A program made the position numbers and the translations under genes. A stretch of 32,946 nt of DNA, from positions 1 to 32,946 of the forward strand of contig JABSRV010000018.1 in assembly GCA_013214905.1 (NCBI GenBank). Direction: 5' to 3'. Positions 3,173-30,738 of the stretch are shown here, piece by piece; position 1 is the first letter of the stretch; each line of letters opens with the position of its first letter. This DNA comes from Psychrobium sp. (GTDB lineage Bacteria > Pseudomonadota > Gammaproteobacteria > Enterobacterales > Psychrobiaceae). The notes beneath the pieces are model-generated. The model worked only from the letters and a program-made list of their open reading frames with translations. It did not search any database and was not told where the DNA came from.

Positions 3173-3221
3173 ATGCGGTTATAGAACAGGGAAAGCCATT
3201 GCTGCTATATCCGCGCACACC

Positions 3222-3327
3222 GTCATCCCCTAGGTCTTTTTATAGGGGATCTCATGCAGCCATTTATTCACCCACTTAGCAGTAATACGTGGCAGGAGAT
3301 ACCGCATAAAAGACTTGCGGCATGACG
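3222..3327. repeat. Two-hairpin dispersed repeat, copy 2
   Basis: GTCATCCCCTAGGTCTTTTTATAGGGGATCTCA ... GGAGATACCGCATAAAAGACTTGCGGCATGACG. Confidence 0.8.
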
Positions 3328-5957: not shown

Positions 5958-6527
5958 TTAAATCTTGCCAACTAAATCTAAAGACGGAGCTAATGTTTCA
6001 CCGCCTGGCTGCCAAGCTGCTGGACAAACTTCGCCATCATGTTCTGCAACATATTGCGCGGCTTTAACTTTACGTAATAACTCGCTTGCGCTGCGGCCTA
6101 TGCCAAGATCATGTACTTCAGAAATCTTGATTTCACCTTCAGGATTAATCACAAAAGTACCGCGTAAGGCTAGACCTTCAGCTTCAATCATTACACCGAA
6201 GTTGCGAGTAATAGCGCCGGTAGGATCGCCAATCATTGGATACTGAATTTTTTTGATAGTGTCTGACGTATCGTGCCATGCTTTATGCGTGAAATGAGTG
6301 TCGGTAGACACCGAATAAACTTCTACGCCCATCTTTTGCAATTCTTCGTAATGGTCTGCCATGTCGCCTAACTCGGTAGGACATACAAATGTAAAGTCAG
6401 CAGGGTAGAAGAAAACGATTGACCATTTGTTGGCTAAGTCAGCTTCGGTTACTTCTACGAATTCACCTTTGTGAAAAGCAGTTGCATTGAATGGCTGTAG
6501 TTTGGTGTTAATGAGTGATTGGTTCAT
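5958..6527 (-). CDS. ahpC: Alkyl hydroperoxide reductase subunit C (2-Cys peroxiredoxin)
   Basis: 189 aa; peroxidatic DFTFVCPTE and resolving EVCPAAW motifs. Confidence 0.96.
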
Positions 6528-13158: not shown

Positions 13159-14904
13159 ATGGATTTAAAGTCGGCTCAATTTTATCACCAACATGCAGCG
13201 CCGCTAGCGCAACAATACCTCTCAAAAACATTTGAAGAAGTTCATCAATCATGGCGTCATTTTCTAACGCCGCTACTGACTAAGCCTAATGCGCGCATTC
13301 TTGATATAGGCGCAGGAGCAGGGCGCGATAGTAAATATTTAGCCGAGCAAGGCCAATTAACCAATCTATCTGTTACCGCCATCGAACCCGCCGCCGCACT
13401 AGCCAAAATAGGCAAAGCGCAGACCCAAGGATTAAATGTTGATTGGCTAGAAGACTCACTGCCAACGCTTGAAAATGTCACCAAACAAGAAATAAGCTTT
13501 GATCTAATATTGATAAGCGCAGTGTGGATGCATATACCGTCTAGCCTTAGAGCGCGCAGCTTACGCAAGCTGGCTAACTTATTAAAACCCGGCGCTAAAT
13601 TAGTTATCTCACTGCGCCACGGTAAAAGCACCGACGAGCGCATCATGCATGAAGTATGCAGCGACGAGCTAACCAGCTTAGGAAAAACCGTTGGTTTATT
13701 TACAGCACTAATCACCGACATTGAAAGTGACAAACTAGGTCGCAGCGAAGTGCATTGGCAAACGGTAGTCTTGCAACTGCCAGACGATGGCAGCGGCGCG
13801 TTCCCTTTCATTCGTCATGTTGCGATTAACGATGGCAAAGCAGCCACCCATAAACTAGCGCTTATGCGTATTTTACTACGCATCGCCGACGGTCATCCAG
13901 GCGCGGTAATACGCCGCGAAGACAATAGAGTGATTCTACCCGCTGGGCTGGTGGCGCTTTATTGGTGCCATCAATACAAATTATTAATTGATGACAACAA
14001 CCTGTTTCAAACTCCGAATAAAAACCCGAACATGGGTTTTATGAAAGCAAACGGTTGGCACAAACTCACCAATCGTGCGGCTAGTGATTACAGCATCGGT
14101 AACTTATTTAGCGGTGATGACGCGCTAGCACTGCATAGAACTCTTAGCGCAGCGGTGAAAAACATTCGCGAGATGCCCTGTAAATACATCACCTTGCCCA
14201 ATAGCGAACAAAGCGTTTTTGAGATTGATAGCAAAACCGTGAAAGCAAAAGACAGCCTTTTTTTAGACATGCAGTCACTTAGCCAGTGGGGTGAGTTCTC
14301 ATTGCCTGAACACATATGGCTAGCCTTTAGTCGCTTTGCCTGTTGGATAGAGCCTGTGCTGGTTAGTGAATGGGCAAGCACCATGGCGAAATACCAAGGC
14401 AACGCTTCAGCAGAGCAGCAGGGTGTTATTCATAGCGCATTGCAATGGCTAGAACCAACACGCACAACGGTTGAAGTGCGAAAGAGATTTGATCAAATCA
14501 ACAACGCTAATAATCCGCAACATTGTGTGTGGAGCCAAAAGCGCTTATCGATGAGTAGCAGCGCCAAAAGTAATGTTCAAATTGACCATTGTTTTCCGTT
14601 TGCACGCTGGCCAAACAATGATCTATGGAACCTGTTGCCGACAGACGCTAAAACCAACTTAGCAAAAAGTGACCGCCTACCAACCGAGCAGCGAATGAAC
14701 AACGCCAAAGAACCCATCAGCCAATGGTGGCAAACAGCTTGGCTTGATAACACTAACGCGCAAGTTAGCCGACAATTTTTCGCCCAAGCCAATATCGCCC
14801 TACCGGGTTTAAATACAGACAACACCTCAATTGATGATCTTTTTGACGCCCTAGCGTTACAGCGCGGACGGCTAAGAGAAATGCAGCAGTTGAGGGAGTG
14901 GTAA
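13159..14904 (+). CDS. Fusion of class I SAM-dependent methyltransferase (N-term) and HNH endonuclease (C-term)
   Basis: N-term ARILDIGAGAGRDSKYLAEQG; C-term CVWSQKRLSMSSSAKSNVQIDHCFPFARWPNNDLWNLLPTDAKTNLAKSD (HNH-like). Confidence 0.8.
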   Translation: MDLKSAQFYHQHAAPLAQQYLSKTFEEVHQSWRHFLTPLLTKPNARILDIGAGAGRDSKYLAEQGQLTNLSVTAIEPAAALAKIGKAQTQGLNVDWLEDSLPTLENVTKQEISFDLILISAVWMHIPSSLRARSLRKLANLLKPGAKLVISLRHGKSTDERIMHEVCSDELTSLGKTVGLFTALITDIESDKLGRSEVHWQTVVLQLPDDGSGAFPFIRHVAINDGKAATHKLALMRILLRIADGHPGAVIRREDNRVILPAGLVALYWCHQYKLLIDDNNLFQTPNKNPNMGFMKANGWHKLTNRAASDYSIGNLFSGDDALALHRTLSAAVKNIREMPCKYITLPNSEQSVFEIDSKTVKAKDSLFLDMQSLSQWGEFSLPEHIWLAFSRFACWIEPVLVSEWASTMAKYQGNASAEQQGVIHSALQWLEPTRTTVEVRKRFDQINNANNPQHCVWSQKRLSMSSSAKSNVQIDHCFPFARWPNNDLWNLLPTDAKTNLAKSDRLPTEQRMNNAKEPISQWWQTAWLDNTNAQVSRQFFAQANIALPGLNTDNTSIDDLFDALALQRGRLREMQQLREW

Positions 14905-15167
14905 TAAATTAAATCGTAAGGCGTTATGGGGCAGAAAGCGCCATAAGAACCATCGTGCCAATATTGGATTTTGGATTAGGTTTTGTATGGTAAAAGTATT
15001 CTTAGACAAGCAACCTGACCCCTTATTCTCTTATCTTCTTAATTCAATATCGACAAGCTCACATTGGATTCCATTATGAGCGATTAGAACGATATTGGGG
15101 GTTGGTAATTTACCACTTTGATTTCTCATTTTTTCCCTTAATTAAATTTTACTAACTTAGCTGAAGT

Positions 15168-15225
15168 GCCTAACATCGAAAAAATGTGACAGCTTTAGCC
15201 GTCAGTGTGATTTAGCTTGTTAAGC
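15168..15225 (-). other. Integron attC-like site (attC-a)
   Basis: Minus strand: GCTTAAC ... TGACGGCTAAAGCTGTCA hairpin ... GTTAGGC; R''/R' consensus RYYYAAC/GTTRRRY. Confidence 0.7.
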
Positions 15226-15226
15226 G

Positions 15227-15832
15227 CTATTTACCATCATCCCAAGAATTCAAGTAATCAGCTAATACATCGCCATGACAGCTTTGAGGCTTACAGAAAC
15301 AACCTAAACGCTTACCTACTAGCTTATAAACTTCTGACTTTTCCTTATTTAGGAACTTCTCATAGTCGAAATCATATTTATACTTTCTTATTACTTCTTC
15401 GCGGGTGTCGCCTTCCTCATACATAGAATAAGGGTTTCCCCAGTATGAACCACGACCAATATACTCGTATTCATCAGTTGACTTCGCTGCTGAATGCTTT
15501 GTATCTACCTTAATGTTAATAACGCGCGTAATTTTTATTTTAATCAGCCTAAGTGGAGTTTTTAACTCTTTTAGTGACGCTAGTTCATCAGGGAAACATT
15601 CCCCATCGTCGAATATAATTGAATGAGTAATACTCGAAAAATCTATTACATCACATGATACTAAGGGCGTTTCTGGGTAATTATCAGTAAATAGCTGACT
15701 AATAAAACCATTAGAATCTTCAGAATATACAACGGAATAATCTTGTATATTTTCGACTATCCGTACAACCTTTCTTTGAAATTTTTCAAAACAATTAAAT
15801 TGCTTAGGATACAATACTAGTACTTTTTTCAT
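15227..15832 (-). CDS. DUF4326 domain-containing protein
   Basis: C-term YIGRGSYWGNPYSMYEEGDTREEVIRKY...LVGKRLGCFCKPQSCHGDVLADYL. Confidence 0.8.
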   Translation of the reverse strand: MKKVLVLYPKQFNCFEKFQRKVVRIVENIQDYSVVYSEDSNGFISQLFTDNYPETPLVSCDVIDFSSITHSIIFDDGECFPDELASLKELKTPLRLIKIKITRVINIKVDTKHSAAKSTDEYEYIGRGSYWGNPYSMYEEGDTREEVIRKYKYDFDYEKFLNKEKSEVYKLVGKRLGCFCKPQSCHGDVLADYLNSWDDGK

Positions 15833-16273
15833 TTAATATAGGTGCTTAACTTTTAAATTCAGATCAGAGCTTTCATTTAAATACTCAACAACTAATCGTC
15901 TGTGACATAAATGAGGCTCATGCTCACTGCATAATAGACAGCCATTGTCTAATAATGCAGGTTTTATCGTTTTTTCAATTTGTCTTTGCGACATTAAATT
16001 AAGAAACTTATCCTCATATTTCTCCCAAGGCATCTCACCTTTTTTATACAAATTTAACATTTCTTTGGTTGGTGCTAATTCAGGGGTATGAATATACTCA
16101 GTGCCACATAACTCTTTTAAAAAAAATTTAAGGTCATCTCTTTTAGCAAATCCAGCTAATTGCGAAACATTATTCAACCGAACATCAAGTAATGTTGAAA
16201 CATTTGCCGATTTAATAAACCCAAAAAATGTTTCAGCATTTTTTTTAGTAAACCCGATAGTAAAAATGTCCAT
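15833..16273 (-). CDS. DUF488 family protein
   Basis: IFTIGFTKKNAETFFGFIKSANVSTLLDVRLN ... CLLCSEHEPHLCHRRLVVEYL. Confidence 0.85.
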   Translation of the reverse strand: MDIFTIGFTKKNAETFFGFIKSANVSTLLDVRLNNVSQLAGFAKRDDLKFFLKELCGTEYIHTPELAPTKEMLNLYKKGEMPWEKYEDKFLNLMSQRQIEKTIKPALLDNGCLLCSEHEPHLCHRRLVVEYLNESSDLNLKVKHLY

Positions 16274-16282
16274 TTAGTATCC

Positions 16283-16894
16283 TTAAAAGATAGTAGCGAC
16301 TAGTTTATAACAATTACCTTTATATTCTTCCCCAAGACTAATACAAAGGACTCCAATAATCCCTGAAAAGTCATTAACAAGGTTACTAAAATTAGGATCT
16401 GTTACCGGTAGTTCATATGGTATTCCATTATACGTAAAAGATATTTTTCTTTTTTCGTCTTTCATATATAACTGAATATTGTCTACTTTTACCAAATAAA
16501 GCGATTGTTCTATTCTAATTGTGCCGAGTTGAATTTGAATATGAGGGACTAGATTACCTTCTCCCCAAAGATCATTGGGTTGATCTAGATGATTATTTAT
16601 TTCATCTAAATTAATAGAGTAATTTTGTGTCCAAACCGTGTCATCTATTAAATAATTTTCCGGTTGGTGAGACAAAGGAACGTGACGTGAAAATTTCATC
16701 ATAATTTTCTGCAATGGCTTTACAGTAAATGTTCCATATGGATTTTGATATTTTGCTTGATTATGGCTTAATTCCCCTCCAATTTCGCTTGAAACTGGAC
16801 GAACCCATTTTCCATTCGCAAGATACTTCCCTGCGACACAATGCTGCTGATGTTTAACTGAGTTAGCTAAAACAAGAATCTCTACTTGGCTCAT
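16283..16894 (-). CDS. Uncharacterised protein, resembles dual-OB (DuOB) proteins
   Basis: ILVLANSVKHQQHCVAGKYLANGKWVRPVS start typical of this family; operonic with DUF488/DUF4326. Confidence 0.55.
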   Translation of the reverse strand: MSQVEILVLANSVKHQQHCVAGKYLANGKWVRPVSSEIGGELSHNQAKYQNPYGTFTVKPLQKIMMKFSRHVPLSHQPENYLIDDTVWTQNYSINLDEINNHLDQPNDLWGEGNLVPHIQIQLGTIRIEQSLYLVKVDNIQLYMKDEKRKISFTYNGIPYELPVTDPNFSNLVNDFSGIIGVLCISLGEEYKGNCYKLVATIF

Positions 16895-16926
16895 TCGGCC
16901 TCCGTGCTGATTGATATATGATTGGC

Positions 16927-16976
16927 GCTTAACGCCTACCTAACCAGCGGTGTGCTGGATTAGTTTTTTGTTAGAT
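16927..16976 (-). other. Integron attC-like site (attC-b)
   Basis: Minus strand: ATCTAAC-AAAAAA-CTAATCCAGC-ACACC-GCTGGTTAG-GTAGGC-GTTAAGC; symmetric spacers and one extrahelical T. Confidence 0.82.
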
Positions 16977-17927
16977 GTGCTCACTGAATAGCTTCCCTTG
17001 AGCCTCAAGCTGATCTCTTAAAAAATGATAATTTTTTCCTTGAAGTGTTTCAATAATTTGAGAATCATCTGTTTTCCGTATTACGGTCGCTACAGAGTAA
17101 CCTGTTTTTTGAATTTCTCCTGTTTCATCAAGCTTTCGGTGCTCTAATAAAACACACTCAATCCAAGCACCATGCTGGAAGCTTATTGTTCCGTTCAAGA
17201 CATCTTCTTTAAATTCATGATCTGCCATTGAAAATGATATAGCTTCATTTTTGTATATTCCTTTCCATTTGTATCGGCCCTCTTTTAAGACGGGCGCGAC
17301 AATTTCTATGATTGCATCATCGATCTTAATTGGAGTCAAATTATGGGAATGGAGGATGAATTTACCAAAGTCTGCACGTTGAACTGTGCGTTCATCTGAT
17401 ACCGGAAAGCCTTTCCCATCGAGCGCTGTAAAGCTAATTATATGGATTTTTTGGTAATGGCTGAGATGTTTATAAAAGTTGGATTTACGAGTTATGACTT
17501 TTAAATTTGACTCTAAGATCTCTACAACCTTAATTTTGGTATTCTCGCTTACATTTCCAGCGCTGACTTCTAATTGAAGTTTTTTTATTCTAAGTTTTCT
17601 TTCTTCAATACTGAATCGTAAGTCTTGCTTCTGAAGTTCTTCCAGTTCGTTATCAGTAATTGGTATTCGAGAAGCAATTAACGCAACAATTGATATGAAT
17701 ATTGAGATTTGACCAGCGTTTTTTCCAAATACTTTCCATCTATCGCGTAGACCACCTTCACGATAGGCTTCTGAATCTATTTGTATAACAAAACCTAACT
17801 CTTTAGCTGTTTCAAATGCTAATGCTAAAAGTTCAGCTTCACAACTATTTCGAACCAGCGCATTCATTGAGTGAGAAGTATCATTGAAAAAATAATGTAG
17901 TTCTAATTTTTCAGCGCATATTACCAT
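16971..17927 (-). CDS. Uncharacterised cassette-encoded protein, 318 aa, possible single TM segment
   Basis: Long ORF whose TAA stop lies inside the attC-b R'' site; no family recognised. Confidence 0.75.
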   Translation of the reverse strand: MVICAEKLELHYFFNDTSHSMNALVRNSCEAELLALAFETAKELGFVIQIDSEAYREGGLRDRWKVFGKNAGQISIFISIVALIASRIPITDNELEELQKQDLRFSIEERKLRIKKLQLEVSAGNVSENTKIKVVEILESNLKVITRKSNFYKHLSHYQKIHIISFTALDGKGFPVSDERTVQRADFGKFILHSHNLTPIKIDDAIIEIVAPVLKEGRYKWKGIYKNEAISFSMADHEFKEDVLNGTISFQHGAWIECVLLEHRKLDETGEIQKTGYSVATVIRKTDDSQIIETLQGKNYHFLRDQLEAQGKLFSEHI

Positions 17928-18003
17928 AGCTATTCCTAACGTCCTTTTAATCTAGATTTTTTTCGAGTATCAATTTTGATGCCATACAATCAATTAGATG
18001 CAC

Positions 18004-18064
18004 ATCTAACTATTAAGAATTTATCTCTCGTCTGCGCAGCATGAGAGATAAATGTCTGTTGGAC
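18004..18064 (-). other. Integron attC-like site (attC-c)
   Basis: Minus strand: GTCCAAC ... ATTTATCTCTC-n13-GAGAGATAAAT ... GTTAGAT; perfect 11-bp stem. Confidence 0.75.
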
Positions 18065-18223
18065 GAAACCATGTGACTCGGCTTAAGATGGTTTTTGTTT
18101 ATTGTGCCGTCAGCCTCAATATAACAAGGATGGGACGCACAAAATCTTGTTCGTAAGTAATATTTAACGACTGCAGTCCCCATAGTTAGATGAGGGGATT
18201 GCAAACAGAGTATCCATAGCGGG

Positions 18224-18430
18224 TTAAGCTTGCTTTGTCACTTTATCTTGGGTATCTATTTTAGACTTTTTATTTATAGCGTCTATGATTCCTGCACCGA
18301 CAAAAAACACAGTACCTATTAGGAAAATTAATAGTCCGACAGTCTCATGCATTGCGCTTTTTGCGGAAGAAAACACGCTATACCCCATTACATATGCTAG
18401 CAATCCAAGTATAAAAAAGAGTATGTTCAT
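18224..18430 (-). CDS. Small membrane protein, two TM segments
   Basis: 68 aa: MNILFFILGLLAYVMGYSVFSS...VGLLIFLIGTVFFVGAGIIDAINKK. Confidence 0.5.
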   Translation of the reverse strand: MNILFFILGLLAYVMGYSVFSSAKSAMHETVGLLIFLIGTVFFVGAGIIDAINKKSKIDTQDKVTKQA

Positions 18431-18735
18431 AATGTTATTTCCTTATAAATATTTCAAAGATAGATTTTTTTTGTGGTAAATTTGGGATAGGAAAAAAGTT
18501 AATTGATATTCAATCACTTTCAATGCCAAAGTTATTATAGGACGTAATCTATCACCAATATAATTACGGTGCAATAAATGTTCAATTGTTTAGTTTTCGT
18601 AATAACATCAAGTAATAAGGCTGATTGGGATGTATTAGAAAAAGTATCGAGCAATGAATAAATCATACCGTCAATTAAGGCTCTGTCTAAGGCGGTTTTG
18701 CGCGAAAAAAACCTAAAACACACATTCTAAATACC

Positions 18736-21700
18736 CTAACCAATCGCTAATTTCGCCGTTTCATGCCACATACTTGCTGGCATTGGGTGTTGTAGTTGCC
18801 AAGTGATGCTCATTGGTTGGCTGCCTTGGTGTTTGATGTAGTTAATTGGGCCGAAATTCACAAAACCCATGGTTCTCTTGTTTTCATCTTTCGCTTGTTC
18901 ACGCACAAATAAAATAATCTGTTTTTTTGTCTTTCTATGTTCGATGTAAGCTAGCCCTTTGCCTCGTTCGGGGCGGGCGCTATTTTGTGATTGCCAATGA
19001 AACAACTTTTCGCTGATCGCGTAATCATGGTACATGGTGGTTGGCGAAAACTGTTTTTCACATTTATTAAGGGTAACAAATAGTAATTCGGTATTTGTTG
19101 CGGGTAAGTTTAAAACCCCTTCACGTGATGGCGATTTCTTATCAAAGGTACTGGCGCCAAAGCCCGATAGAATTTGTTCTCTGGTATATCTGGCGTGTAT
19201 TTTTATCGCGCTACTTCTTACGCTGTTTTTGGCGTTAGGGTTGGTGCTATTGATGGTGAACTCTTGATGATGAATGCGGTTTACCAGCAGCGTTAATACG
19301 TCAATAAGCTCTAACTGTAATTGAGGGTGTCGTAATGCCTGCAAGCTTTGTTGCAGCGAGCCAAAGCCTAGTTTTGTTCCTGTTTTTTCCCAGAAGTTAT
19401 AGTGGCACATTAATGCGAAATCAAGCGCGTCAGTTTGTGAAGCGTCGAAATTAAAATCGTTTTCGCATAGCGTTTTAATAAAGGATAAATAAGAAAGCGA
19501 GCTACACGATAACAGGTGATTATTGATCGCACGATAATAGGCTTTCGTCAGGTCTAGTTGCTTATTCGCTAGTACATTAGGTTCATTGACCTGATGCGCG
19601 CTAATGTCGGCATTGTTGTCGACGTTATTGTTGGTATTGCTTTCATAATTGTTGTCTGCGTGTAGTAATGCAGTCCAACCGCCTTTCTTGTCTACTTTTA
19701 TGCGATATATGTCTTCTAGGCTAATACTGGGGTGCATGTGTAAGAAGTTGATTAACGTTAATGGTAAATCGCTATGTAATGGGTAACTGTTGATAAGCCC
19801 TATCAGTCGGCTGCGGTTTAGCGTGGCGCTGCGAATGTTTTTGAGGATCATTTCCTGCGTTTTTTCCTGCAACTCTATGCGACAACTTAGCGGCAAGTGC
19901 GGGAAACCATCTGTGATTTCTTTAGATATCGATTGGTTTGTTTTACCCACTAATGCTCTAAACTTTTGCGAGAAATCGTATTCACTGCGAGCGTTGCCAA
20001 CAAAGTCTAAAACGGTGCAACACTCTTTACCATCGACTAAGCGTAGTCCACGGCCTAGTTGTTGTAAAAATATGGTTAGGCTTTCAGTGGGGCGTAAGAA
20101 CAACAAGGTATCTACTTCTGGGATATCGACCCCTTCGTTAAATATATCAACCACAAACAATATGTTGATTGCGCCTTGTCTTAATTTTTGCTGTTTTATA
20201 TCTCGCTCGTTGCTGTTGTCGCTGGTCAGTACATCACAGGCGATGCCGCGCAATGTGAACTTTGTCATCATGTAGTTTGCATGATCTTTACTGACACAAA
20301 AGGCTAATGCTCGCATTGTTGATATGTCGGTGACTATCTCATTAAGGCTCAGCAGAATGCGGTTAACACGTTGTTCGTTGTGGGTGTAAACGTTGCTAAG
20401 TTCACTAATGTCATAACGACCTTTATTCCAAGGTACTTGGCTTAAGTCTGTTTCGTCGTCAATGCCGAAATATTGAAATGGTGATAAATGACGGCGATTA
20501 ATTGCTTCGGGTAGTCGGATCTCAGCGGCAATGACGCCACCAAAGTCACTAAGGATATTACCGCCATCATGGCGCTCTGGCGTAGCGGTTAAGCCTAGTA
20601 ATATCTGAGGTTGGAAATTATTTAATATCGCGCGATAACTACTTGCAGTGATGTGGTGCACTTCGTCGATAACGATGTAATCAAAAAAATCAGGGCTCAA
20701 GTTTAGGCGGTCAATGTTGTTGTTAATGCTTTGAACCGAGGCGAATAGTTGATTGTAATGGTTTGGTTGATGATTACCGACCCATAACTCGCCAAAATTA
20801 CTGTCTCTTAATACGCCGCGAAAGGCGCTTTGTGCCTGTTTTAATATCTCTTGGCGATGCGCTACAAATAAGAATTTTGCTTGCGGATTTTGTTGATAGA
20901 AGCGTGCAAAGTCAAATGCTGAGATGATGGTTTTTCCGGTGCCTGTCGCAGCAACCACCAGATTGCGATAACGATTGTGTAATACACGTTCGGTGTGCAA
21001 TTGTTCTAAGATCTCACGCTGATGAGGGAATGGCTTTATTTCAAAATGATAGCTGTGATTCTTGTTGAAATTGCCTTTGGCCTCTCTTAACGCATTGTGT
21101 AGTTTTTCTTTGCTGGTGGCTTTACCGTCGAACAGTTCAAAATCGCTAGACTGCCAATAGGTTTCAAAGGTGCTTAGCGATTTTTCGATAATGTGTGGTA
21201 TTTCTTGCGAGGTGATCTTCAAGTTCCATTCTAAGCCGCTGGTGAGGGCAGAATGCGATAAATTTGAAGAGCCAATATAACCGGTGTGAAATTGGCTATT
21301 ACGCATGAATAAGTATGATTTTGCGTGCAGCCGTTCCCGTTGCGTGTTGTAGCTGAGTTTAACTTCTGTGTTGGGTAGCGACGCTAAAAACTCAACGGCT
21401 TTGGCATCGGTCGCGCCCATATAGGAAGTCGTAATGATCTTTAACTGTTTTCCGCTGCGGGTGAATTCTTCAAGTTCCTTTTTGAAAATTCGAATGCCTG
21501 TCCATTTGATAAATGATACTAGCCAATAGATTTTGTCTGATGACTTTATTTCACGTTTAAGTTCGGTCTCTAAAGATATGCCTGCATTGCTGCCACAAAA
21601 CAATTCGCTTTGGGTAAGGCCCGTTAACGGGAAAATAGACTCTGCGTATTTAGGTAAATCGGCGGCAATGGGATTAGATTTATCAAATAGTGCGGTAAGG

Positions 21701-21990
21701 ATTTTTCCTTGGCTATCGATAAGGTTTTCACTAATGAAATCATCGTCGTTGATATGCGCTTTTAGCCACATCACTAAATCGTTAGCTAACTTTATTTGCG
21801 CCAATAAGCGTTCGTCACTCGCTGGCACGGCGTCAATGGCAAAAGCCATTACTCTATTGAGAAAACGTGATAACCAAGTTGATGCTTCTGATGGTTCTAA
21901 TTGGCGCTCGCCGACATAGAAAGTATCGCGGTTTAGGTTCTTTTCAATGAGCTGCGTTATAAGCTGTTCGTAAATGCCAGTTTGATTCAT
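18736..21990 (-). CDS. PLD-nuclease-like / SF2 DEAD-DEAH helicase / DUF3427 protein
   Basis: PLD motif HAKSYLFMRNSQFHTGYIGSSNLSHSAL; Walker A VAATGTGKT; DEVH; QQLGRGLR; long C-term of DUF3427 type. Confidence 0.88.
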   Translation of the reverse strand: MNQTGIYEQLITQLIEKNLNRDTFYVGERQLEPSEASTWLSRFLNRVMAFAIDAVPASDERLLAQIKLANDLVMWLKAHINDDDFISENLIDSQGKILTALFDKSNPIAADLPKYAESIFPLTGLTQSELFCGSNAGISLETELKREIKSSDKIYWLVSFIKWTGIRIFKKELEEFTRSGKQLKIITTSYMGATDAKAVEFLASLPNTEVKLSYNTQRERLHAKSYLFMRNSQFHTGYIGSSNLSHSALTSGLEWNLKITSQEIPHIIEKSLSTFETYWQSSDFELFDGKATSKEKLHNALREAKGNFNKNHSYHFEIKPFPHQREILEQLHTERVLHNRYRNLVVAATGTGKTIISAFDFARFYQQNPQAKFLFVAHRQEILKQAQSAFRGVLRDSNFGELWVGNHQPNHYNQLFASVQSINNNIDRLNLSPDFFDYIVIDEVHHITASSYRAILNNFQPQILLGLTATPERHDGGNILSDFGGVIAAEIRLPEAINRRHLSPFQYFGIDDETDLSQVPWNKGRYDISELSNVYTHNEQRVNRILLSLNEIVTDISTMRALAFCVSKDHANYMMTKFTLRGIACDVLTSDNSNERDIKQQKLRQGAINILFVVDIFNEGVDIPEVDTLLFLRPTESLTIFLQQLGRGLRLVDGKECCTVLDFVGNARSEYDFSQKFRALVGKTNQSISKEITDGFPHLPLSCRIELQEKTQEMILKNIRSATLNRSRLIGLINSYPLHSDLPLTLINFLHMHPSISLEDIYRIKVDKKGGWTALLHADNNYESNTNNNVDNNADISAHQVNEPNVLANKQLDLTKAYYRAINNHLLSCSSLSYLSFIKTLCENDFNFDASQTDALDFALMCHYNFWEKTGTKLGFGSLQQSLQALRHPQLQLELIDVLTLLVNRIHHQEFTINSTNPNAKNSVRSSAIKIHARYTREQILSGFGASTFDKKSPSREGVLNLPATNTELLFVTLNKCEKQFSPTTMYHDYAISEKLFHWQSQNSARPERGKGLAYIEHRKTKKQIILFVREQAKDENKRTMGFVNFGPINYIKHQGSQPMSITWQLQHPMPASMWHETAKLAIG

Positions 21991-23012
21991 TATTTGTTGC
22001 CAATCTCATACTTAGTGCTTTGTTCGCAATCGCTGCAATTTAGGTTGTAATCATCTTTTCTTTTACTAACTTTTGTTTGCTTACTATTACAGTGAGGGCA
22101 CGGCTGTTTCATTGCCGTGTTTCCGCTGCACTGCTGGCATTTTAGGTAATAACCATATTTACCATGACTAGGGACTAGTTGTTTAGTCGCTTGGCATTTT
22201 GAACAACATAGGTTGATAGTTTTTGCTTTGGTATTTACTGATTTTATTGTAGGTGGTTGAGTCTTTTCGTCGTTTGAGACGGGATTAATTACTTTTGGTT
22301 CTGCCGTGTTGGTGATATTTTTTACTACAGATTTTTTGCCATTGGAAATGTCTTGTTCAAGTAAGAAATTGGCGATTGACTGCATTTCATCAGCATTAAA
22401 GTAAGGGCGAATATCGGCGAAATTTAGCATGTAGATAAATTTATGTCGTAGCTTCATGAGCTTGTTTATTTTATCAACTAGAAATTCTGATTTAACTAAT
22501 TGCGCTGAAATGTCTGTCGGCATTTCTGTGCGGTCAATAATCGCATTGCTAGAAATCGCACAAATATTGTTCCAACAGCGCCCACCAAAACCCTTTTGTG
22601 CAAATAACATTTTTTCTAAAATATTTACTCTGTTTTCAGATAGCAATTCTTTTAAAAGATCTTGTTGCAACTCCACCTGTTTAATCGGCGAGGGCATGCC
22701 TTGCCATTTACCTTGATAGCTACGAGACCATTCCTGTTGTTTGTTTACTTTTACTTCACCGGTGATGCTTTTAGATTCAATTAAGATAAAGCCATAGGTA
22801 TAGACAATAAGGTGATCTATTTGCGCCGTTTCGTTGTTGTGTTTAAATTTTAGATCGTTAAAAACAAATACCTGTTGATGATCTTTAAAGCTTCGACGTA
22901 GAAAAAAGGCAACATCTTGCTCTTGTTTTAGTCCTGCTTTAGCGGTTGGTGAACTAGCATTAATGGGGGCTTTATCCTTTAAGATCAAAATGTACGTCCT
23001 TTTACTCATCAC
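21990..23012 (-). CDS. NERD-domain protein with C-terminal zinc ribbons
   Basis: AQIDHLIVYTYGFILIESKSITGEV (NERD); CCSKC, CQQC, CPHC, CSDC at the C-terminus. Confidence 0.85.
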   Translation of the reverse strand: MMSKRTYILILKDKAPINASSPTAKAGLKQEQDVAFFLRRSFKDHQQVFVFNDLKFKHNNETAQIDHLIVYTYGFILIESKSITGEVKVNKQQEWSRSYQGKWQGMPSPIKQVELQQDLLKELLSENRVNILEKMLFAQKGFGGRCWNNICAISSNAIIDRTEMPTDISAQLVKSEFLVDKINKLMKLRHKFIYMLNFADIRPYFNADEMQSIANFLLEQDISNGKKSVVKNITNTAEPKVINPVSNDEKTQPPTIKSVNTKAKTINLCCSKCQATKQLVPSHGKYGYYLKCQQCSGNTAMKQPCPHCNSKQTKVSKRKDDYNLNCSDCEQSTKYEIGNK

Positions 23013-23100
23013 TTCACAATGAGCATGAGGTTAACATGATTGAACTTGATTTAGTGGGAATTATTATCAATAAGTAACTGAATTTATTGGAAGGTTAGGA

Positions 23101-23877
23101 ATGGGAATTAATTTATTCACTGTGTTTTTCGAAGCTGCGATGCATTTTTGGTTCATCGGCGTATTAGTGCTGCTGACTTGGTTGTTGCGCTTGCCGTGTA
23201 TAAAAGGAATGCTGGGCGAGTGGCGCGTGAATAGGGCGTTGAGTGGAGAATTATCGCAAGACACTTATCAGTTATTTAAGAATGTCACTTTGCCCACGAA
23301 AGATGGCCCCACACAAATTGATCATATTTTATTATCGCCATTTGGTATTTTCGTCGTTGAAACAAAAAACATGAAAGGTTGGATTTTTGGTAATGAGCGA
23401 CAGTCACGCTGGACTCAGAAAATTTATCGTCATAAATCTTCATTTCAAAATCCGTTACGACAAAATTATAAGCATACCCAAACCTTGTGCCAGCTATTGG
23501 ACTTAGATAAAGAGGTAGTACACTCGGTGATTATATTTGTTGGCAGTGCAACATTAAAAACTGCGATGCCAGATAACGTCGGCCATCTTAGGCAGGGACT
23601 TGACTATATTCGCTCAAAACAGACAGTGTTATTTAGCCCCGAACAGGTTGTGCAATTCGCTGCCATATTAACGAGTAATAAATTGTCTGCTGGTTTAGGA
23701 ACACATCTCAATCATGTGCAACATGTAAAAGAAATTGTCAGCGAACGCGAAAATGGAAAGACTAGTTGCCCCCGCTGTAATAGCGTGTTAGTTGAACGAA
23801 AGAATCGCAAGACTGGTGAGTTATTTATTGGTTGCAGCGCTTTTCCTAAGTGCCGTTATTTAAATAATGAATATTAA
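23101..23877 (+). CDS. NERD-domain protein with topoisomerase-type C4 zinc finger and N-terminal TM segment
   Basis: TQIDHILLSPFGIFVVETKNMKGWIFG; CPRCNSVLVERKNRKTGELFIGCSAFPKCRY. Confidence 0.88.
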   Translation: MGINLFTVFFEAAMHFWFIGVLVLLTWLLRLPCIKGMLGEWRVNRALSGELSQDTYQLFKNVTLPTKDGPTQIDHILLSPFGIFVVETKNMKGWIFGNERQSRWTQKIYRHKSSFQNPLRQNYKHTQTLCQLLDLDKEVVHSVIIFVGSATLKTAMPDNVGHLRQGLDYIRSKQTVLFSPEQVVQFAAILTSNKLSAGLGTHLNHVQHVKEIVSERENGKTSCPRCNSVLVERKNRKTGELFIGCSAFPKCRYLNNEY

Positions 23878-24109
23878 GGGGACCCAATTAACTCGTCAGT
23901 AATATTCGCAATGTTCGCATAATTCACGTGAGACAAGGGCTTTATAATCGTCGAGCCATTTAGTTTAAATACTCGTTACAGCAACATGTTTGTTTACTTT
24001 CGAGTGACTTAATATTTTAATTTTGGTGTTTGTTATTTTATAACGCTAATAACGATTAAATTGAATTAGTATAATAAGTAGTAGTTTATCTGGTTGTTTT
24101 ATATATATA

Positions 24110-24874
24110 ATGCATCTTTTTTTGCAAGGGATGCGAATGAGTATTTCACCAGAAATTTTGACAGAACAGTCTACGCCACATATACCACAGAACAATGCCT
24201 CTTTGGATAATAAGCCTGAAGATAGCGCTATACCACAAGACACTTCCAGTTCGCCTCCCCTAAACGATAAGTCAGAAAACAGTGCGTTAGCACGCGAATG
24301 GCAATTAATGGAAAAGCAGCGGCACAAAATCCGATTGTGCGATCCACGAGGTGTTTATTTTTATCGTCATATTCCTTGTGGTTGGTTTGCTAGTTTATTG
24401 CACTTTGTTACCTTATTAATCTCAAGCCTTTTGATTGCGGCTGCATTTTTGTTTTGGTTGTTCTTGCCCAAGGTTGTAGAAGTTGATGTTATTGGGGTTG
24501 GTTCGGTAGCTAATGTAACCATTATAGATGCGCTTGAATTATTTTTTACTGCATTAATAGTGACAATCGGAATTCATCGTTTAGTACGTCAAACACGTAA
24601 ATTTTCAGTTAAGCGTTATGGCATGGCTATGTTGGCCAATGCTTGTAACCGAGTGATTGTTAGCTATTTAAAGTTAACAATCTATGTCTCTGCGTTGTTG
24701 ATGGTTGGCGTGTTTTCTGTGCTAGAAAATGAACAGGATGCTTCTTTTCTTTTTGAGCGTTTAAGCAACGGAGTCGTTGGCGATGTCGTTAGTGTAATGG
24801 GATCAGTGGCGAGTATTATCATATTTTATCGCGCATTTTCTTCTTGTCATAAGGAGTTGTCATTATGCGATTAA
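24110..24874 (+). CDS. Uncharacterised membrane protein
   Basis: Several hydrophobic segments (WFASLLHFVTLLISSLLIAAAFLFWLFLP etc.); overlaps next gene; start may be internal. Confidence 0.65.
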   Translation: MHLFLQGMRMSISPEILTEQSTPHIPQNNASLDNKPEDSAIPQDTSSSPPLNDKSENSALAREWQLMEKQRHKIRLCDPRGVYFYRHIPCGWFASLLHFVTLLISSLLIAAAFLFWLFLPKVVEVDVIGVGSVANVTIIDALELFFTALIVTIGIHRLVRQTRKFSVKRYGMAMLANACNRVIVSYLKLTIYVSALLMVGVFSVLENEQDASFLFERLSNGVVGDVVSVMGSVASIIIFYRAFSSCHKELSLCD

Positions 24875-25350
24875 TTATCTTAAGTATGTTGTTCTGCTTG
24901 TCTATGGTTAATGCCAACAGCGCACTGGCTAAAGTAGACGTATATGGTGATTGCAAGCAGCAGTATCAAGGAATGGTGGCATCGTCATTTGTGCTTTTTA
25001 GTAAAAAGGAATTAATGGAATTAGGGACTTGCACTGGCGTCGCGCTATTAAAGAGAAACAGACTATCGACGTTGGTTTACTCTTGCAATGAAGCACAGGA
25101 GGCAAGAAGTGTGTTTGGTATTGCAACATTAAGCAAAGCCGAAGCTATTCAAGTGGGGCAATGTGTCGGGGTCATTAACTATATTTATGACCGCTATGAC
25201 GGTGAGCGTTTAGACTACTCTGCATATAGGCGTAGTAATTATGTCTATTCTTGTATTCGAGGGCGAGCAGCGGTGGATTTATTGTCTAAAGAGCCGAAAC
25301 GAAGTTATGGACGAAATACTGTACGTGATCTGTTGTGTGATCGTCACTAA
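24865..25350 (+). CDS. Secreted/periplasmic protein, Rap1a/Tai immunity-like (tentative)
   Basis: Signal peptide MRLIILSMLFCLSMVNANSALA; two Cys-containing modules of similar layout. Confidence 0.5.
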   Translation: MRLIILSMLFCLSMVNANSALAKVDVYGDCKQQYQGMVASSFVLFSKKELMELGTCTGVALLKRNRLSTLVYSCNEAQEARSVFGIATLSKAEAIQVGQCVGVINYIYDRYDGERLDYSAYRRSNYVYSCIRGRAAVDLLSKEPKRSYGRNTVRDLLCDRH

Positions 25351-26105
25351 TGGCTAGCCATAAAACAATAGATACAGAAGTACTCACAATTGGCCAGTTT
25401 GCATTAGGTTTTTTGACGCAAGATAGGTCGGTGAGCTTGCCAAAAAAAATCCATGATATGTTGCAAAATGTACTGACAAAACGTGGCGGTGATGCGCTTC
25501 GTTATCGTGAAGCGATAGTGCTTAAAGTGCCGGTTAAAGATCCAACCAGTAAAAACACTGAGCGGCATCAGGTTATTCGTAATCGCAGTTATGCCATATT
25601 TAATATTTTGTGTTTATATGCATTTATGGACACTAAGAATATTAAGTGTTTGTTTCAGCATTATTATGAGACACGGCATGACCCTTCTGCACGAGATTTT
25701 TCAATGCTTCATCAACAGCAGCAGTCGCAATATTTGGCTTATTTTTGTTTTGGTATTGATATGGCCCAAATAGCTAAGATAGAACATCGATTACTCGATG
25801 TTAAATTCGATTTATTTACCCAAAAACTGCCATCACCTTTTAATGAAAACTCAGAAGGTGATCTGTCACCTTTGTTAATTAAGGTGAGCGAAGCGATTGA
25901 TTGGACTAGTTATCGAGTGTTGTATCAACAAGCAGAAGACTGTTTCGAGCAAAAAGACTTTTGTCGCGCTAAGTCATTGTTAACGCAACTCGATCAGCAA
26001 GCGCTTATAACACTACCGGTGGTTGACTCGTTACGACGTAAAATAAGTAGGATTGAAGATGAATCTCAAGAGGCGTTTGATTATTTACAAAACCTGTTAA
26101 ATTAG
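25350..26105 (+). CDS. Uncharacterised protein, 251 aa
   Basis: ATG overlaps previous stop by 1 nt (TAATG); no family recognised. Confidence 0.65.
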   Translation: MASHKTIDTEVLTIGQFALGFLTQDRSVSLPKKIHDMLQNVLTKRGGDALRYREAIVLKVPVKDPTSKNTERHQVIRNRSYAIFNILCLYAFMDTKNIKCLFQHYYETRHDPSARDFSMLHQQQQSQYLAYFCFGIDMAQIAKIEHRLLDVKFDLFTQKLPSPFNENSEGDLSPLLIKVSEAIDWTSYRVLYQQAEDCFEQKDFCRAKSLLTQLDQQALITLPVVDSLRRKISRIEDESQEAFDYLQNLLN

Positions 26106-26164
26106 TCCTTGGTTGTGCCCGGCACAATCTCATGATGGCTCCAGTTAATCAATTGGAGCATCTT

Positions 26165-26434
26165 ATGCAAATCCTAGAAAAATTATTCTCAAGGTTTGAA
26201 CCTCAAGTTTATTCTCGCTATTTTTCGCGTGCCTTTAAATTATTAGAACAGCTTAATTCTGGTGTTGATTCGCGTGTGTTAGGCGGTCGTTGTCTGCATC
26301 AAAATAGAAAATTTATCCGTTTTAAATTTGGTCACTATCGACTGATCATAAAACATGACCATGGTGTGATTAAGCCGCAGGTATTCCTTCATCGTAAAAA
26401 TTTAGAGAGTTTTATTAAACGAAGGTGCAGCTAA
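26165..26434 (+). CDS. Uncharacterised small protein
   Basis: ATG 26165 preceded by TTGGAG; alternative start at 26132; basic C-terminus FGHYRLIIKHDHGVIKPQVFLHRKNLESFIKRR. Confidence 0.5.
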   Translation: MQILEKLFSRFEPQVYSRYFSRAFKLLEQLNSGVDSRVLGGRCLHQNRKFIRFKFGHYRLIIKHDHGVIKPQVFLHRKNLESFIKRRCS

Positions 26435-26476
26435 TTTGCTGCAGTGAATTAAATTTTTTAGAAGGAAGGTAATATT

Positions 26477-27016
26477 ATGCAATTAAATACTGTGATTAAT
26501 CACGATGAAAAAGCCCCGTTAATGCCCGATGGAGAACGCCCGATCGAATTTGATGAGAAAGTGGTTGCACTTAATTTTGATAAGCTGAAGTGGAAGTTAA
26601 CAAAATCATCGGAAAGTAGCTGGGCTGATAACTTGTGTGATTATGCTGAGCGCGAATACCGTAAGTTGTTGTCACTAAAAAAATGGTATCCGAAGTTGTC
26701 GTTTGTACCCAGCAAATTGGCGGATAAGTTTTGGCACGAGCATATTTTAGATACTCAAAATTATGCTGACGATTGCCATGCGGTGTTTGGTTATTTTGTT
26801 CATCATTATCCTTATTTTGGTATTTATGGTGATGAGGATCAAAGCAAACTGCAAACTGCATTTGACGAAACTGTTCTGTTATATGAACAACATTTTGGCG
26901 CGTTTCCTACTAGTGAGTTGTTCGGAGGAAAATCGTTAGAAGCATCCCGTTGTGAGGGACATGCGTGCCATGCACCTAGCACTTGTGCGTGCCGCTCTCC
27001 GGGAGCGTGTAAGTAA
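26477..27016 (+). CDS. GRDP-like (DUF1399-type) protein with Cys-rich C-terminal tail
   Basis: SKLADKFWHEHILDTQNYADDCHAVFGYFVHHYPYFG; AGAAGGAAGG upstream; tail CEGHACHAPSTCACRSPGACK. Confidence 0.65.
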   Translation: MQLNTVINHDEKAPLMPDGERPIEFDEKVVALNFDKLKWKLTKSSESSWADNLCDYAEREYRKLLSLKKWYPKLSFVPSKLADKFWHEHILDTQNYADDCHAVFGYFVHHYPYFGIYGDEDQSKLQTAFDETVLLYEQHFGAFPTSELFGGKSLEASRCEGHACHAPSTCACRSPGACK

Positions 27017-27204
27017 GTTGTAACGTAAGCGTCAGCAATGGCGCTTTTATTGAGAGCAAAGAACAGTGATGAATATGAAATTGAACAATACAAGTTTGTT
27101 GACGATATATTGATTTTGCTGGTATGTTTTATTTTGCATATTAATCAGCTAGTTATTAATGGTTTATTATGCGATTATTTTAATTATAATGTAAGGGAAT
27201 ACCA

Positions 27205-28119
27205 ATGGGTAAGTTAACATTTGCAGTGCTAGTCGATGGCGAAAATGCTGCTTATAGTGACTATTTAGCGACGTTAGAAGAAGTCGAGAAATATGGTACG
27301 GTGGCGATTAAATGGGTGTATGCCGATTGGACATCGCCTAACCAAAATGGTTGGAAGGATATATTGAAAGAAACGGCATCTAGTCCTAAACAGCAATTCC
27401 ATTATGCCAAAGATGCCGCGGATCATGCCTTGGTGATGGATGCTATAGAGCTAATTATTACCAACCCAAGAATCACAGGGGTGTGCATTGTTTCAAGTGA
27501 CGGTGGCTTTGGTAGTTTAGCGCAAAGGATCCGTGAAAAAGGCCAGCATGTAATGGCGATTGGCCAAGAAAATACACCAGAGCATTTTAGACGAGCTTGT
27601 CATAATTTTGTATATACCAAAAATCTATCAGTTACTGAAAGTAGTAACGTCAATGTCGATCTTGCAGAGCTATTAATTGAGGCGTATCAGCGATGCGCAT
27701 TGTCGCAAGAGCGAGTCTATTTAGGTGATATGGGTACGATACTAAAACAAATTAACTCATCTTTTGATTGCCGTAATTATAATTTTCAAACACTCGGTAA
27801 ATTGATTAAACAGCAGTCGGGATTATTTGATGTTGATATAGAAAACAGTAGTTGCTATATCACGCTAAAAAATCCAATTAAAGACAGTGAGATTAATACG
27901 ATGAATGGCAAAGTCCGAAAGTTAAATGAAGGGAAAGATTATGGTTTTATTCGCAGTGACGCTGGAGATTTTCATTTCAAGCTCGTTGAGATTACATCCA
28001 AAGAGCAAACAATAAAGCAAGGTAGCTCGGTCATGTTTGATGTAAATACAATAGACCTTGCTAAGGACAAAAGCAAAACCTATTCTCCATCAGCCTTCAA
28101 TATTCGGTTAGCTTCTTAA
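27205..28119 (+). CDS. NYN-domain predicted RNase with OST-HTH/LOTUS and C-terminal cold-shock-like domain
   Basis: LVDGENAAY..., VSSDGGFGSLAQRIREKGQHVMAIG (NYN); VDLAELLIEAYQ...GDMGTILKQINSSFDCRNYNFQTLGKLI (LOTUS); NGKVRKLNEGKDYGFIRSDAGDFHF (CSD-like). Confidence 0.85.
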   Translation: MGKLTFAVLVDGENAAYSDYLATLEEVEKYGTVAIKWVYADWTSPNQNGWKDILKETASSPKQQFHYAKDAADHALVMDAIELIITNPRITGVCIVSSDGGFGSLAQRIREKGQHVMAIGQENTPEHFRRACHNFVYTKNLSVTESSNVNVDLAELLIEAYQRCALSQERVYLGDMGTILKQINSSFDCRNYNFQTLGKLIKQQSGLFDVDIENSSCYITLKNPIKDSEINTMNGKVRKLNEGKDYGFIRSDAGDFHFKLVEITSKEQTIKQGSSVMFDVNTIDLAKDKSKTYSPSAFNIRLAS

Positions 28120-28181
28120 TCGTTAATATCATTGGGGAAGTTAGTGGGCTTTCGAACATCATCATATTACCCTCTTGCGCG

Positions 28182-28206
28182 GGTAAGTGTGCCGTTAACA
28201 CTTACC
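28182..28206. terminator. Hairpin between convergent genes, overlaps stop codon of the ATPase gene
   Basis: GGTAAGTGT-GCCGTTA-ACACTTACC, perfect 9-bp stem. Confidence 0.45.
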
Positions 28207-29517
28207 AATCAATGCCTCAATTTTCCCCGCATAATAAAGCGGGGCGACTATTGCCTTTGGATCGTCTAATGAACCCGTTGAGCCTATTAGTTTGAGTGTT
28301 TTTGTTGGCTGATAGCGCAGCACGTAACTAGCGAGTGATTTAGCGCGGGTGCGTTTTCCGCTTTTGACTTCAACGGGGATGATGTCGCCGTCGTTTGTCT
28401 TTATCACAAATTCAATTTCGGCGCGGGCATACTCCCAAGAGTAAGTTGGCTGATGGTTGTGGGCAATGAGTTCGTTTTGCACGAAGTTCTCGCTGATGTA
28501 ACCTTTGTAATTAAAACTCTGCTGTTGGTGTTCTTGGAAAGTGATACCTAGCATGTGGCCTAGTAAGCCAAGATCAAAGAAAAAGAGTTTAAAGTAATTG
28601 TCTTTGGCTAGCGCGGGCAGTGGCGAGGTTGGTTGGCTTTCTATTGGGTGGCATTTTGAGATTAGTTTACATTTCTCTAGATAATTGATTAGCCCAGCTA
28701 ATTCTTGGTATCTATTTTTTTTCTCGATAACATCTTTAAACTTGAAACGTTTTACAGAGTCATCAATGTTTTTGGCTAGCTGTGTCGGCACCTGTTTGAA
28801 CACTTGTTGAATATGCTGCGCCGACATTTTCCCTGAGTATTTCCCGAAATCTCGCTCGTAACCGGCAATGAGTGAGGCGTGTATTTGTGATACTTGTTGT
28901 GTGCATTCTAATATGCCGTGAGTTTCTTTAGCGGTAAACCATTGTGCAACGGCTTCTGGCATACCACCTACAAAGTAGTATTGGGTCAGTAAATCAAATA
29001 GTTTTTTATGGGCAATGCTACTCATATTTATCTGCTCATATGCTTTTATTAGCGCAGGTTGCTTTGACGCCCATAAAAACTCTTCGAAGGTTAATGGCGA
29101 TAGATGAAATAACTCAACCTTGCCGACAGGGAATGAGCCAAGCAAACCAATGTTTGAGCCCGACGCGCAAATAAACATTTCTGGCTGTTGTTCTGCAAAA
29201 AATTTGAGAGAGTTGATGGCCGCCTGACACTCGCCAATTTCGTCAAATATGATAAGGGTATTTAATTTGTCGATGCTTAAATTAAGGGTCAATTCGATGT
29301 TGGCTAGGATGTCATCTGGGTTTAGCGAATCAGCAAAAAAATCGGCATAACTTGGTTGTTCTAGGAAGTCTAATCTCACTACTTGCCTAAACTGTTGGCC
29401 AAATAGTTGTTGCAGCAGATAAGATTTCCCTGTTTGGCGCGCGCCGTCGAGCAGTATAGGCTTTCTGTGTGGCGTTTCTTTCCACGCGATAAGTTTGTTT
29501 AGTAGGCGGCGCTGCAT
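28195..29517 (-). CDS. AAA_14 / DUF4143 family ATPase
   Basis: MQRRLLNKLIAWKETPHRKPILLDGARQTGKSYLLQQLFG; IIFDEIGECQAAINSLKFF; C-term VEVKSGKRTRAKSL; start chosen at internal Met. Confidence 0.9.
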   Translation of the reverse strand: MQRRLLNKLIAWKETPHRKPILLDGARQTGKSYLLQQLFGQQFRQVVRLDFLEQPSYADFFADSLNPDDILANIELTLNLSIDKLNTLIIFDEIGECQAAINSLKFFAEQQPEMFICASGSNIGLLGSFPVGKVELFHLSPLTFEEFLWASKQPALIKAYEQINMSSIAHKKLFDLLTQYYFVGGMPEAVAQWFTAKETHGILECTQQVSQIHASLIAGYERDFGKYSGKMSAQHIQQVFKQVPTQLAKNIDDSVKRFKFKDVIEKKNRYQELAGLINYLEKCKLISKCHPIESQPTSPLPALAKDNYFKLFFFDLGLLGHMLGITFQEHQQQSFNYKGYISENFVQNELIAHNHQPTYSWEYARAEIEFVIKTNDGDIIPVEVKSGKRTRAKSLASYVLRYQPTKTLKLIGSTGSLDDPKAIVAPLYYAGKIEALIGKC

Positions 29518-29570
29518 GATATATTTAACCAAATATGACGATTGAATAAGCACATGTTAGCACATGGATT

Positions 29571-29660
29571 ACACTTTAATGCGCATTAAAGTGTGGTAAA
29601 ACTACATTTTAATGCGCGTAAAAATGTAAAATTATCACATTTTTGTGCGCTTTAACGTGG
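29571..29660. repeat. Three 24-bp palindromic iterons at 33-bp spacing
   Basis: 29571 ACACTTTAATGCGCATTAAAGTGT; 29604 ACATTTTAATGCGCGTAAAAATGT; 29637 ACATTTTTGTGCGCTTTAACGTGG. Confidence 0.85.
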
Positions 29661-29671
29661 GCGTGTTGACG

Positions 29672-30667
29672 CTATTTAGGCTGTTTAATCCAAAAAACGT
29701 GATTGAACAGTTCACTAGGGATAAAGGGGGTGGGCTCAAGCATGGATGTCTTTTCGATGGTAATTAGGCCAAATAAATTCCAAAAACGATGGAGCATACG
29801 CAATGAATAGGCGTTAATGGTCCGCTCATAAGGTGTCTGATATTTGTCATCAATAAAGTCTTCCACGGCCATTGGGAAGCTGTCGATAATATGTTGTGCA
29901 AAACCCTTGGTGGTGAATTTTTTATTTTGTTGTTGCAGCTGGGCTAATTGCCATAGCGCATAGCTGGTGGTTTGAGGCAAAAATCGTGATTCGTTATAGC
30001 CGTCTTCATAGGCCCAGTTGTAGCTTAGGGTGTAGTAGTCAAACAGGGTTTGATAGATTTGCACGATGCTAAGTTTCTTGCCCCTTTGGGTTAGGGAGAA
30101 ATGTTTTTTCTGGAATTTTATGATGCCTAAATCGGTTAATAACAGGCGCACTACATTGAGGCTGGAAAAATCATCTTCTTTACTCACTACGTTATGGTTG
30201 TAGCTAAGCCCTGCATCAATGAATTGCTCAGCCGCTTGAGCGTAAATGAATTTTACTGCCGCTGCCGGTAGATTTCCTTTGGCGGTGGCTTTAAGCGGAG
30301 CTTCATGTAATAGCGCCAGTAAATGAAGGGTAATTTGCATGACCGGTGTTTGTGTTATGGTTTGTTCGTCTAGTTCTGGCTGCCAACCAATTAATTCTTG
30401 TTCGTCTAGCGGTAACATCAGCATGTGATGGACGTGCTCGGACGACAGGCCATGAAATTCATCACGTTGCTGGTCGTTATGCTCCATCACTTGTTGGTCA
30501 AGAAATTCCTGCATTTCTTCGAGTGACGCAAAGTCTTGTGCCGCAATAGCGGCGGCTAATTGCTCGGTGACTTCGCTCGCTGGCGATGGCATGTCGGCTA
30601 GGCAACATTTTTTATATTTTTTTCCACTGCCACATGGGCATGGTTCATTACGAGATACTTTTGTCAT
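29672..30667 (-). CDS. SEC-C motif-containing protein
   Basis: N-term VSRNEPCPCGSGKKYKKCC. Confidence 0.85.
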   Translation of the reverse strand: MTKVSRNEPCPCGSGKKYKKCCLADMPSPASEVTEQLAAAIAAQDFASLEEMQEFLDQQVMEHNDQQRDEFHGLSSEHVHHMLMLPLDEQELIGWQPELDEQTITQTPVMQITLHLLALLHEAPLKATAKGNLPAAAVKFIYAQAAEQFIDAGLSYNHNVVSKEDDFSSLNVVRLLLTDLGIIKFQKKHFSLTQRGKKLSIVQIYQTLFDYYTLSYNWAYEDGYNESRFLPQTTSYALWQLAQLQQQNKKFTTKGFAQHIIDSFPMAVEDFIDDKYQTPYERTINAYSLRMLHRFWNLFGLITIEKTSMLEPTPFIPSELFNHVFWIKQPK

Positions 30668-30738
30668 TTGAATGCCGTTGTTATTTTTTATAGCCGTATA
30701 ATAACGCTAATGAACCGATTGTGGTAATGGGATGTAGC

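Follow-up and report, generated by a model that had tools for sequence, protein, structure and literature searches.

The stretch of Psychrobium sp. DNA analyzed here (32,946 nucleotides; hereafter the window) contains, between 15168 and 18064, three sites resembling the attC sites of integrons, and an earlier note interpreted them as a gene cassette array without an integrase, that is, a CALIN. Does this region consist of genuine integron cassettes, are all three sites attC, and how could such an array come to lie away from an integrase gene? It is bounded by two genes of the host side, encoding a methyltransferase-HNH protein on the left (13159–14904, plus strand; PF13649, PF13395) and a protein with PLD, ResIII helicase, and DUF3427 domains on the right (18736–21990, minus strand; PF04851, PF11907, PF13091). 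Between them, four minus-strand ORFs occupy two units. The surrounding interval 13159–32109 resembles a defense-type island, with the HNH-methyltransferase, the PLD-helicase-DUF3427 protein, two NERD proteins, a ParE-like protein, an NYN-LOTUS-CSD protein, and an AAA_14-DUF4143 protein. Two intergenic repeats in it are dispersed in this genome and its congeners, the one at 14914–14996 in more than 20 copies (about 76–92% identity) and the one at 18478–18726 in several (about 70–81%).

Ends of the form RYYYAAC...GTTRRRY are present, as described in the earlier note, at 15168–15225 (site A), 16927–16976 (site B), and 18004–18064 (site C). This pattern is not diagnostic alone, being found 165 times in the genome versus 136 times for a reversed control, and one could regard both the sites and the complementarities around them as coincidental. 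The complementarity between the start of each cassette and the R'' of its own attC, claimed in the same note, is exact: 11 nt for the start at 18010 and the R'' ending at 16976, and 9 nt for the start at 16933 and the R'' ending at 15225. In 300 dinucleotide shuffles, matches averaged 0.013 per window, and no shuffle produced two units with a common site (0/300), so that the note was right to call chance agreement unlikely; with the chained units and the covariance model match at site B described below, coincidence is an explanation of vanishingly small probability. As a positive control, the boundary rule recovers long intI-adjacent arrays in relatives, with more than 12 cassettes each in G003 and G015. 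The boundary test is symmetric, and identical units are also found when the plus strand is read; the minus orientation of the array is assigned because all its ORFs are on the minus strand and because of the neighboring insertion sequence end discussed below.

An attC covariance search, proposed in the earlier note, was run with a model of our own, trained on 45 attC sites from the intI-adjacent arrays of relatives and from other loci, with the genome of the window excluded. The helices of the model covary well above slid and shuffled controls. When the window was searched with the filters off and E-values up to 10, the best two matches were sites B (29.5 bits, E = 4e-6) and A (13.4 bits, E = 0.24), each on the minus strand and with its ends placed exactly, and site B was also recovered in the whole-genome search. 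Site B (R'' ATCTAAC, R' GTTAAGC) is a clear attC. Site A (R'' GCTTAAC at 15219–15225, R' GTTAGGC at 15168–15174) is weak by the model alone and is supported by the boundary complementarity with the start of its own cassette. Both units are integron cassettes. The Rfam search at gathering thresholds gave no match. Other model matches in the genome are G000:C273:188-279, C147:1866-1960, C191:4099-4153, and C279:20393-20483. On another contig (G000:C95, locus L020), two sites of the attC pattern, unscored by the model, flank a gene for a 308-aa tyrosine recombinase (3189–3253 and 6027–6081).

The first cassette (16933–18009, minus strand; G^TT boundaries, 11/11 complementarity) comprises attC site B and a single gene for a 318-aa protein (16971–17927), which matches the PADLOC candidate defense family PDC-S42 (PDLC05016, 5.2e-122). 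The domain search assigned this protein to no Pfam family, and with 53.8 bits it is under the 60-bit cut-off of NCBIfam NF053583. The second cassette (15174–16932, minus strand; G^TT boundaries, 9/9 complementarity) ends with attC site A and contains three genes tightly packed as an operon. They encode a 203-aa DuOB protein (16283–16894; PF22557, 6.4e-47), a 146-aa DUF488 protein (15833–16273; PF04343, 1e-22), and a 201-aa protein combining the mSLOG (PF22565, 5.9e-38) and DUF4326 (PF14216, 1.9e-19) domains (15227–15832); the first two match PDC-M45A (PDLC04653, 1.2e-40) and PDC-M45C (PDLC04658, 8.8e-69), respectively. Homologs of the cassette genes occur on plasmids. We regard the cassettes as probable carriers of two candidate anti-phage systems, a role assigned through PADLOC families, PDC-M45 and PDC-S42, that are themselves candidates. 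Integron cassettes with anti-phage systems are described in recent studies (Darracq 2025, Kieffer 2025, and Getz 2025, as cited in PMC12444791); the cassettes of the window likewise hold candidate defense genes, here known from PADLOC candidate families only.

Site C (18004–18064) has no match to the attC model even with the filters off and E-values up to 10. The window at 18007–18122, covering this site and 58 bp upstream of it, is 97% identical to positions 591–706 of contig C250 of the same genome. On the cassette side, the identity stops precisely at G^TT, and C250 continues with a different cassette that has its own matching R'' 428 bp further. The cassette-precise change at 18009/18010 that had been put forward as a test of the array is therefore found within the genome itself. 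Directly upstream of the terminus, C250 encodes a 361-aa IS91 transposase (NF033538, 380.8 bits, cut-off 125) and a 284-aa tyrosine recombinase (P0002), and the element is essentially full-length there. The recombinase is IntI/Xer-like and falls under the integron integrase cut-off (TIGR02249, 178 bits versus 265), with no match to the IntI-specific profile positions ~177–236. The terminus is also 90–91% identical to sequences on contig C14 of G006 and contig C87 of G004, both congeners, and in both genomes an IS91 transposase gene is located directly upstream of it. By these identities, 18010–18122 (minus strand) is the truncated right end of an IS91/tyrosine-recombinase element, which lowers the count of cassette attC sites in the array from three to two. 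What remains of the element in the window is ~113 bp long and lacks a transposase; site C is formed by its last 55 bp, namely the subterminal GTCCAAC (18058–18064), a hairpin, and then the G^TT junction. Of the three sites claimed as attC-like, A and B thus stand as cassette attC, and C is the terminus of an IS91-family element.

The locus could also be viewed as a plain CALIN with three ordinary attC sites left after the loss of intI, site C belonging to a decayed upstream cassette. Such a view would account for the hairpin bordered by R''-like and R'-like ends and followed by a real cassette at G^TT. Against it, the independent attC model fails to match site C as well as the matching termini in L088, L089, L092–L094, L117, L118, L120, and L122, the upstream intergenic stretch contains no start matching the R'' of site C, and in C250, G006, and G004 the conserved terminus directly follows IS91 transposase genes. 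We consider three ordinary attC sites highly improbable; in particular, the C250, G006, and G004 termini led us to reject a lost cassette as the source of site C. The stretch 18162–18229, considered as a fourth site, forms a hairpin and was rejected, as it has neither a boundary partner nor a model match.

Searches for intI gave no match on the contig of the window (C90), in agreement with the absence of an integrase gene from the window reported before. With at least two attC sites (A and B, the former matched only weakly by the model) and no neighboring intI, the locus qualifies as a CALIN. The absence of an integrase does not extend to the genome as a whole: the genome-wide search recommended in the earlier note finds an intact intI on contig C154, at 402.6 bits against TIGR02249, above the cut-off and over profile positions 1–315, accompanied by attI and a cassette. 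A second, partial intI is located at a contig end (L018, G000:C397, 2–564) in two overlapping frames, which could be a broken gene or an assembly edge. CALINs are well known (PMC9024848), and their mobilization in trans is stated in PMC12444791. The cassettes of the window are presumably mobilizable in trans by the IntI of C154. Further, contig C250 begins inside a cassette that is also located beside attI on C154, a sign that repeats have fragmented the arrays in the draft assembly (447 contigs).

The history of the locus is suggested by G006, where the syntenic locus on contig C11 lacks the region 14908–18739. The flanks of the window align to G006:C11:23364-24271 and 22381-23026, and the same two flanking genes are only ~340 bp apart there, with an intergenic sequence that cannot be aligned to the window. 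Given this short distance, the lineage of the window probably gained the array, though the short locus of G006 could be a loss and not the ancestral state.

The element whose end remains in the window belongs to a wider family. A search with the terminus in 395 genomes of the order matched only within the genus of the window, a terminus search of plasmids gave no match, and a scan of genome contigs yielded two loci only, both from one MAG labeled Psychrobiaceae. Reached through the transposase protein and not the terminus sequence, the two-gene element was also found on Pseudoalteromonas and Vibrio plasmids, in Thiothrix, in Ca. Thiodictyon, and in other genomes of the same order; the distant relatives L123 and L125 (38–40% identity), without a GTTGAAC start, were left out. 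The resulting sample consists of 26 right ends, from full copies or remnants, which are related and not fully independent of each other.

In this sample, the right end repeatedly abuts a cassette start: 13 of the 26 ends do so with a complementary run of at least 9 nt, compared to 1.4% of 1251 control GTT[AG] sites, and under a looser test (at least 7 nt) the counts are 18/26 and 11.8%, respectively. In the remaining eight ends the run is below 7 and a good cassette start is lacking; for at least two of them (L117 and L124), the R' spacing rule is the only one violated. GTTR adjoins the right end in 26/26 cases, partly by construction, as the junction strings were required to be followed by GTT. 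The cassettes that follow the element on its right carry ordinary attC sites. For instance, in the V. harveyi plasmid p345-185 an arr cassette follows the element end with a 12-nt match. Behind the IS91 end on contig C14 of G006 (L079, 5982–7100) is a cassette which, read by eye, encodes a SLATT-looking membrane protein and has a second ORF; it is followed by TIR-like ORFs, also read by eye, and could be a defense cassette. On the left side, intI is directly upstream of the element in L088 and L104 (the cases of pPBSW1 and Thiodictyon), and in about half of the copies the flanks resemble the attI ends of intI-adjacent arrays (e.g., CTAATAAGCT|GTT), a likeness that, scored with a model of six attI sites, is only half convincing. 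Truncation as in the window is also seen in seven Pseudoalteromonas plasmid records (L095–L101), which retain only the terminal ~100–320 bp without the genes of the element, in some of them followed by cassettes. We found no paper on the recurrent junction of an IS91 end with a cassette in the literature searched, a search that was not exhaustive.

What places the element at this junction? One possibility is that it travels as an integron cassette, inserted by IntI at attI via its attC-like end. In 13 of the 14 full copies, the start of the element, GTTGAACTAANCCGC, is complementary over 11–14 of 15 positions to its own subterminal R'', located 60–97 nt from the element end, as would be expected of a cassette; the elements occupy the first position, two of them with intI upstream and about half with attI-like left flanks; and one such case was named 'a new gene cassette structure' in PMC9229058. 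The subterminal repeat was at first sight a proof of IntI action and was dropped as such: the rhizobial and Aromatoleum relatives (ISAzo26), none of them adjoining integron cassettes, show the identical subterminal repeat and hairpin layout (13/14). Since relatives outside integrons share this layout, the repeat characterizes the element family and does not prove mobility by IntI. Further, the element ends are unrecognized by the attC model, and carriage by IntI seems to us possible but doubtful.

We somewhat favor another explanation, in which the element is an insertion sequence that uses its own enzymes, the tyrosine recombinase and/or the IS91 transposase with the target GTTR, to enter the junction of attI and the first cassette independently of IntI. 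It encodes both enzymes, it is found in replicon stretches without nearby intI, and its right neighbor always begins with GTTA or GTTG. IS91 elements abut a fixed tetranucleotide, and the rhizobial relatives and ISAzo26 end at a different right core, TTAT and not GTT. On the other hand, attI-like left flanks are seen in only about half of the copies, and for no single copy could an uninterrupted target site be identified. By analogy with the marine elements and their integron junctions, the rhizobial ones may target recombination sites of neighboring tyrosine-recombinase elements. On the rhizobial plasmids L126, L129, and L130, IS91/tyrosine-recombinase elements adjoin other tyrosine recombinases, which in L126 form a RIT-like row of three. 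A bolder and rather unlikely reading is that the elements are self-mobile gene cassettes, whose own IntI/Xer-like recombinase would insert them by the attC-like end into attI-like sites anywhere in a genome, with cassettes then collecting behind them.

Compared to known systems, the array resembles the CALINs of IntegronFinder 2.0 (PMC9024848) in having two attC sites in an array, no intI nearby, and cassettes on one strand. It differs from them in having only two cassettes, an IS91-type terminus at the head, and an intact intI elsewhere in the genome. The element of the window is ISAzo26/ISShvi3-like. A precedent for its position is ISShvi3, an IS91-like element adjoining attC in Shewanella sp. 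Choline-02u (PMC9229058); only one case is given there, whereas here the junction recurs and both ends are defined, the comparison being by published description. ISAzo26 and the rhizobial IS91/tyrosine-recombinase elements (L127, L126, and L129) share the two-gene layout, the start complementary to the subterminal repeat, and the long right-end hairpin, but are located away from integron cassettes and have the TTAT core. Finally, IS1111-attC elements and group IIC-attC introns are mobile elements that also target integron recombination sites (PMC9229058), but their enzymes are unrelated and they interrupt attC, whereas the element of the window is at the G^TT junction.

With considerable confidence, we conclude that the region holds two genuine cassettes assembled at G^TT, forming an integrase-less array headed by what is left of the right end of an IS91/tyrosine-recombinase element, and that the end of this element mimics attC. 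We suggest the following order of events. Integron recombination at G^TT would have assembled the two cassettes, with the element located where an attI-like sequence meets the first of them, its right end against the G^TT of the cassette. Later the element would have lost all but its last ~113 bp, leaving the attC-mimicking hairpin, and the intact IntI of C154 could mobilize the cassettes in trans.

These observations bear on the origin and spread of CALINs away from intI. A concrete and testable vehicle is offered by the IS91/tyrosine-recombinase element, which recurs in several genera at a defined position, with an attI-like sequence on one side and the first cassette on the other. If the elements were self-mobile cassettes, they would seed and spread integrase-less arrays like that of the window. 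The attC-like ends of such elements can be miscounted as cassettes in integron surveys. Finally, the candidate phage-defense genes in the cassettes fit recent work on integrons as defense libraries.
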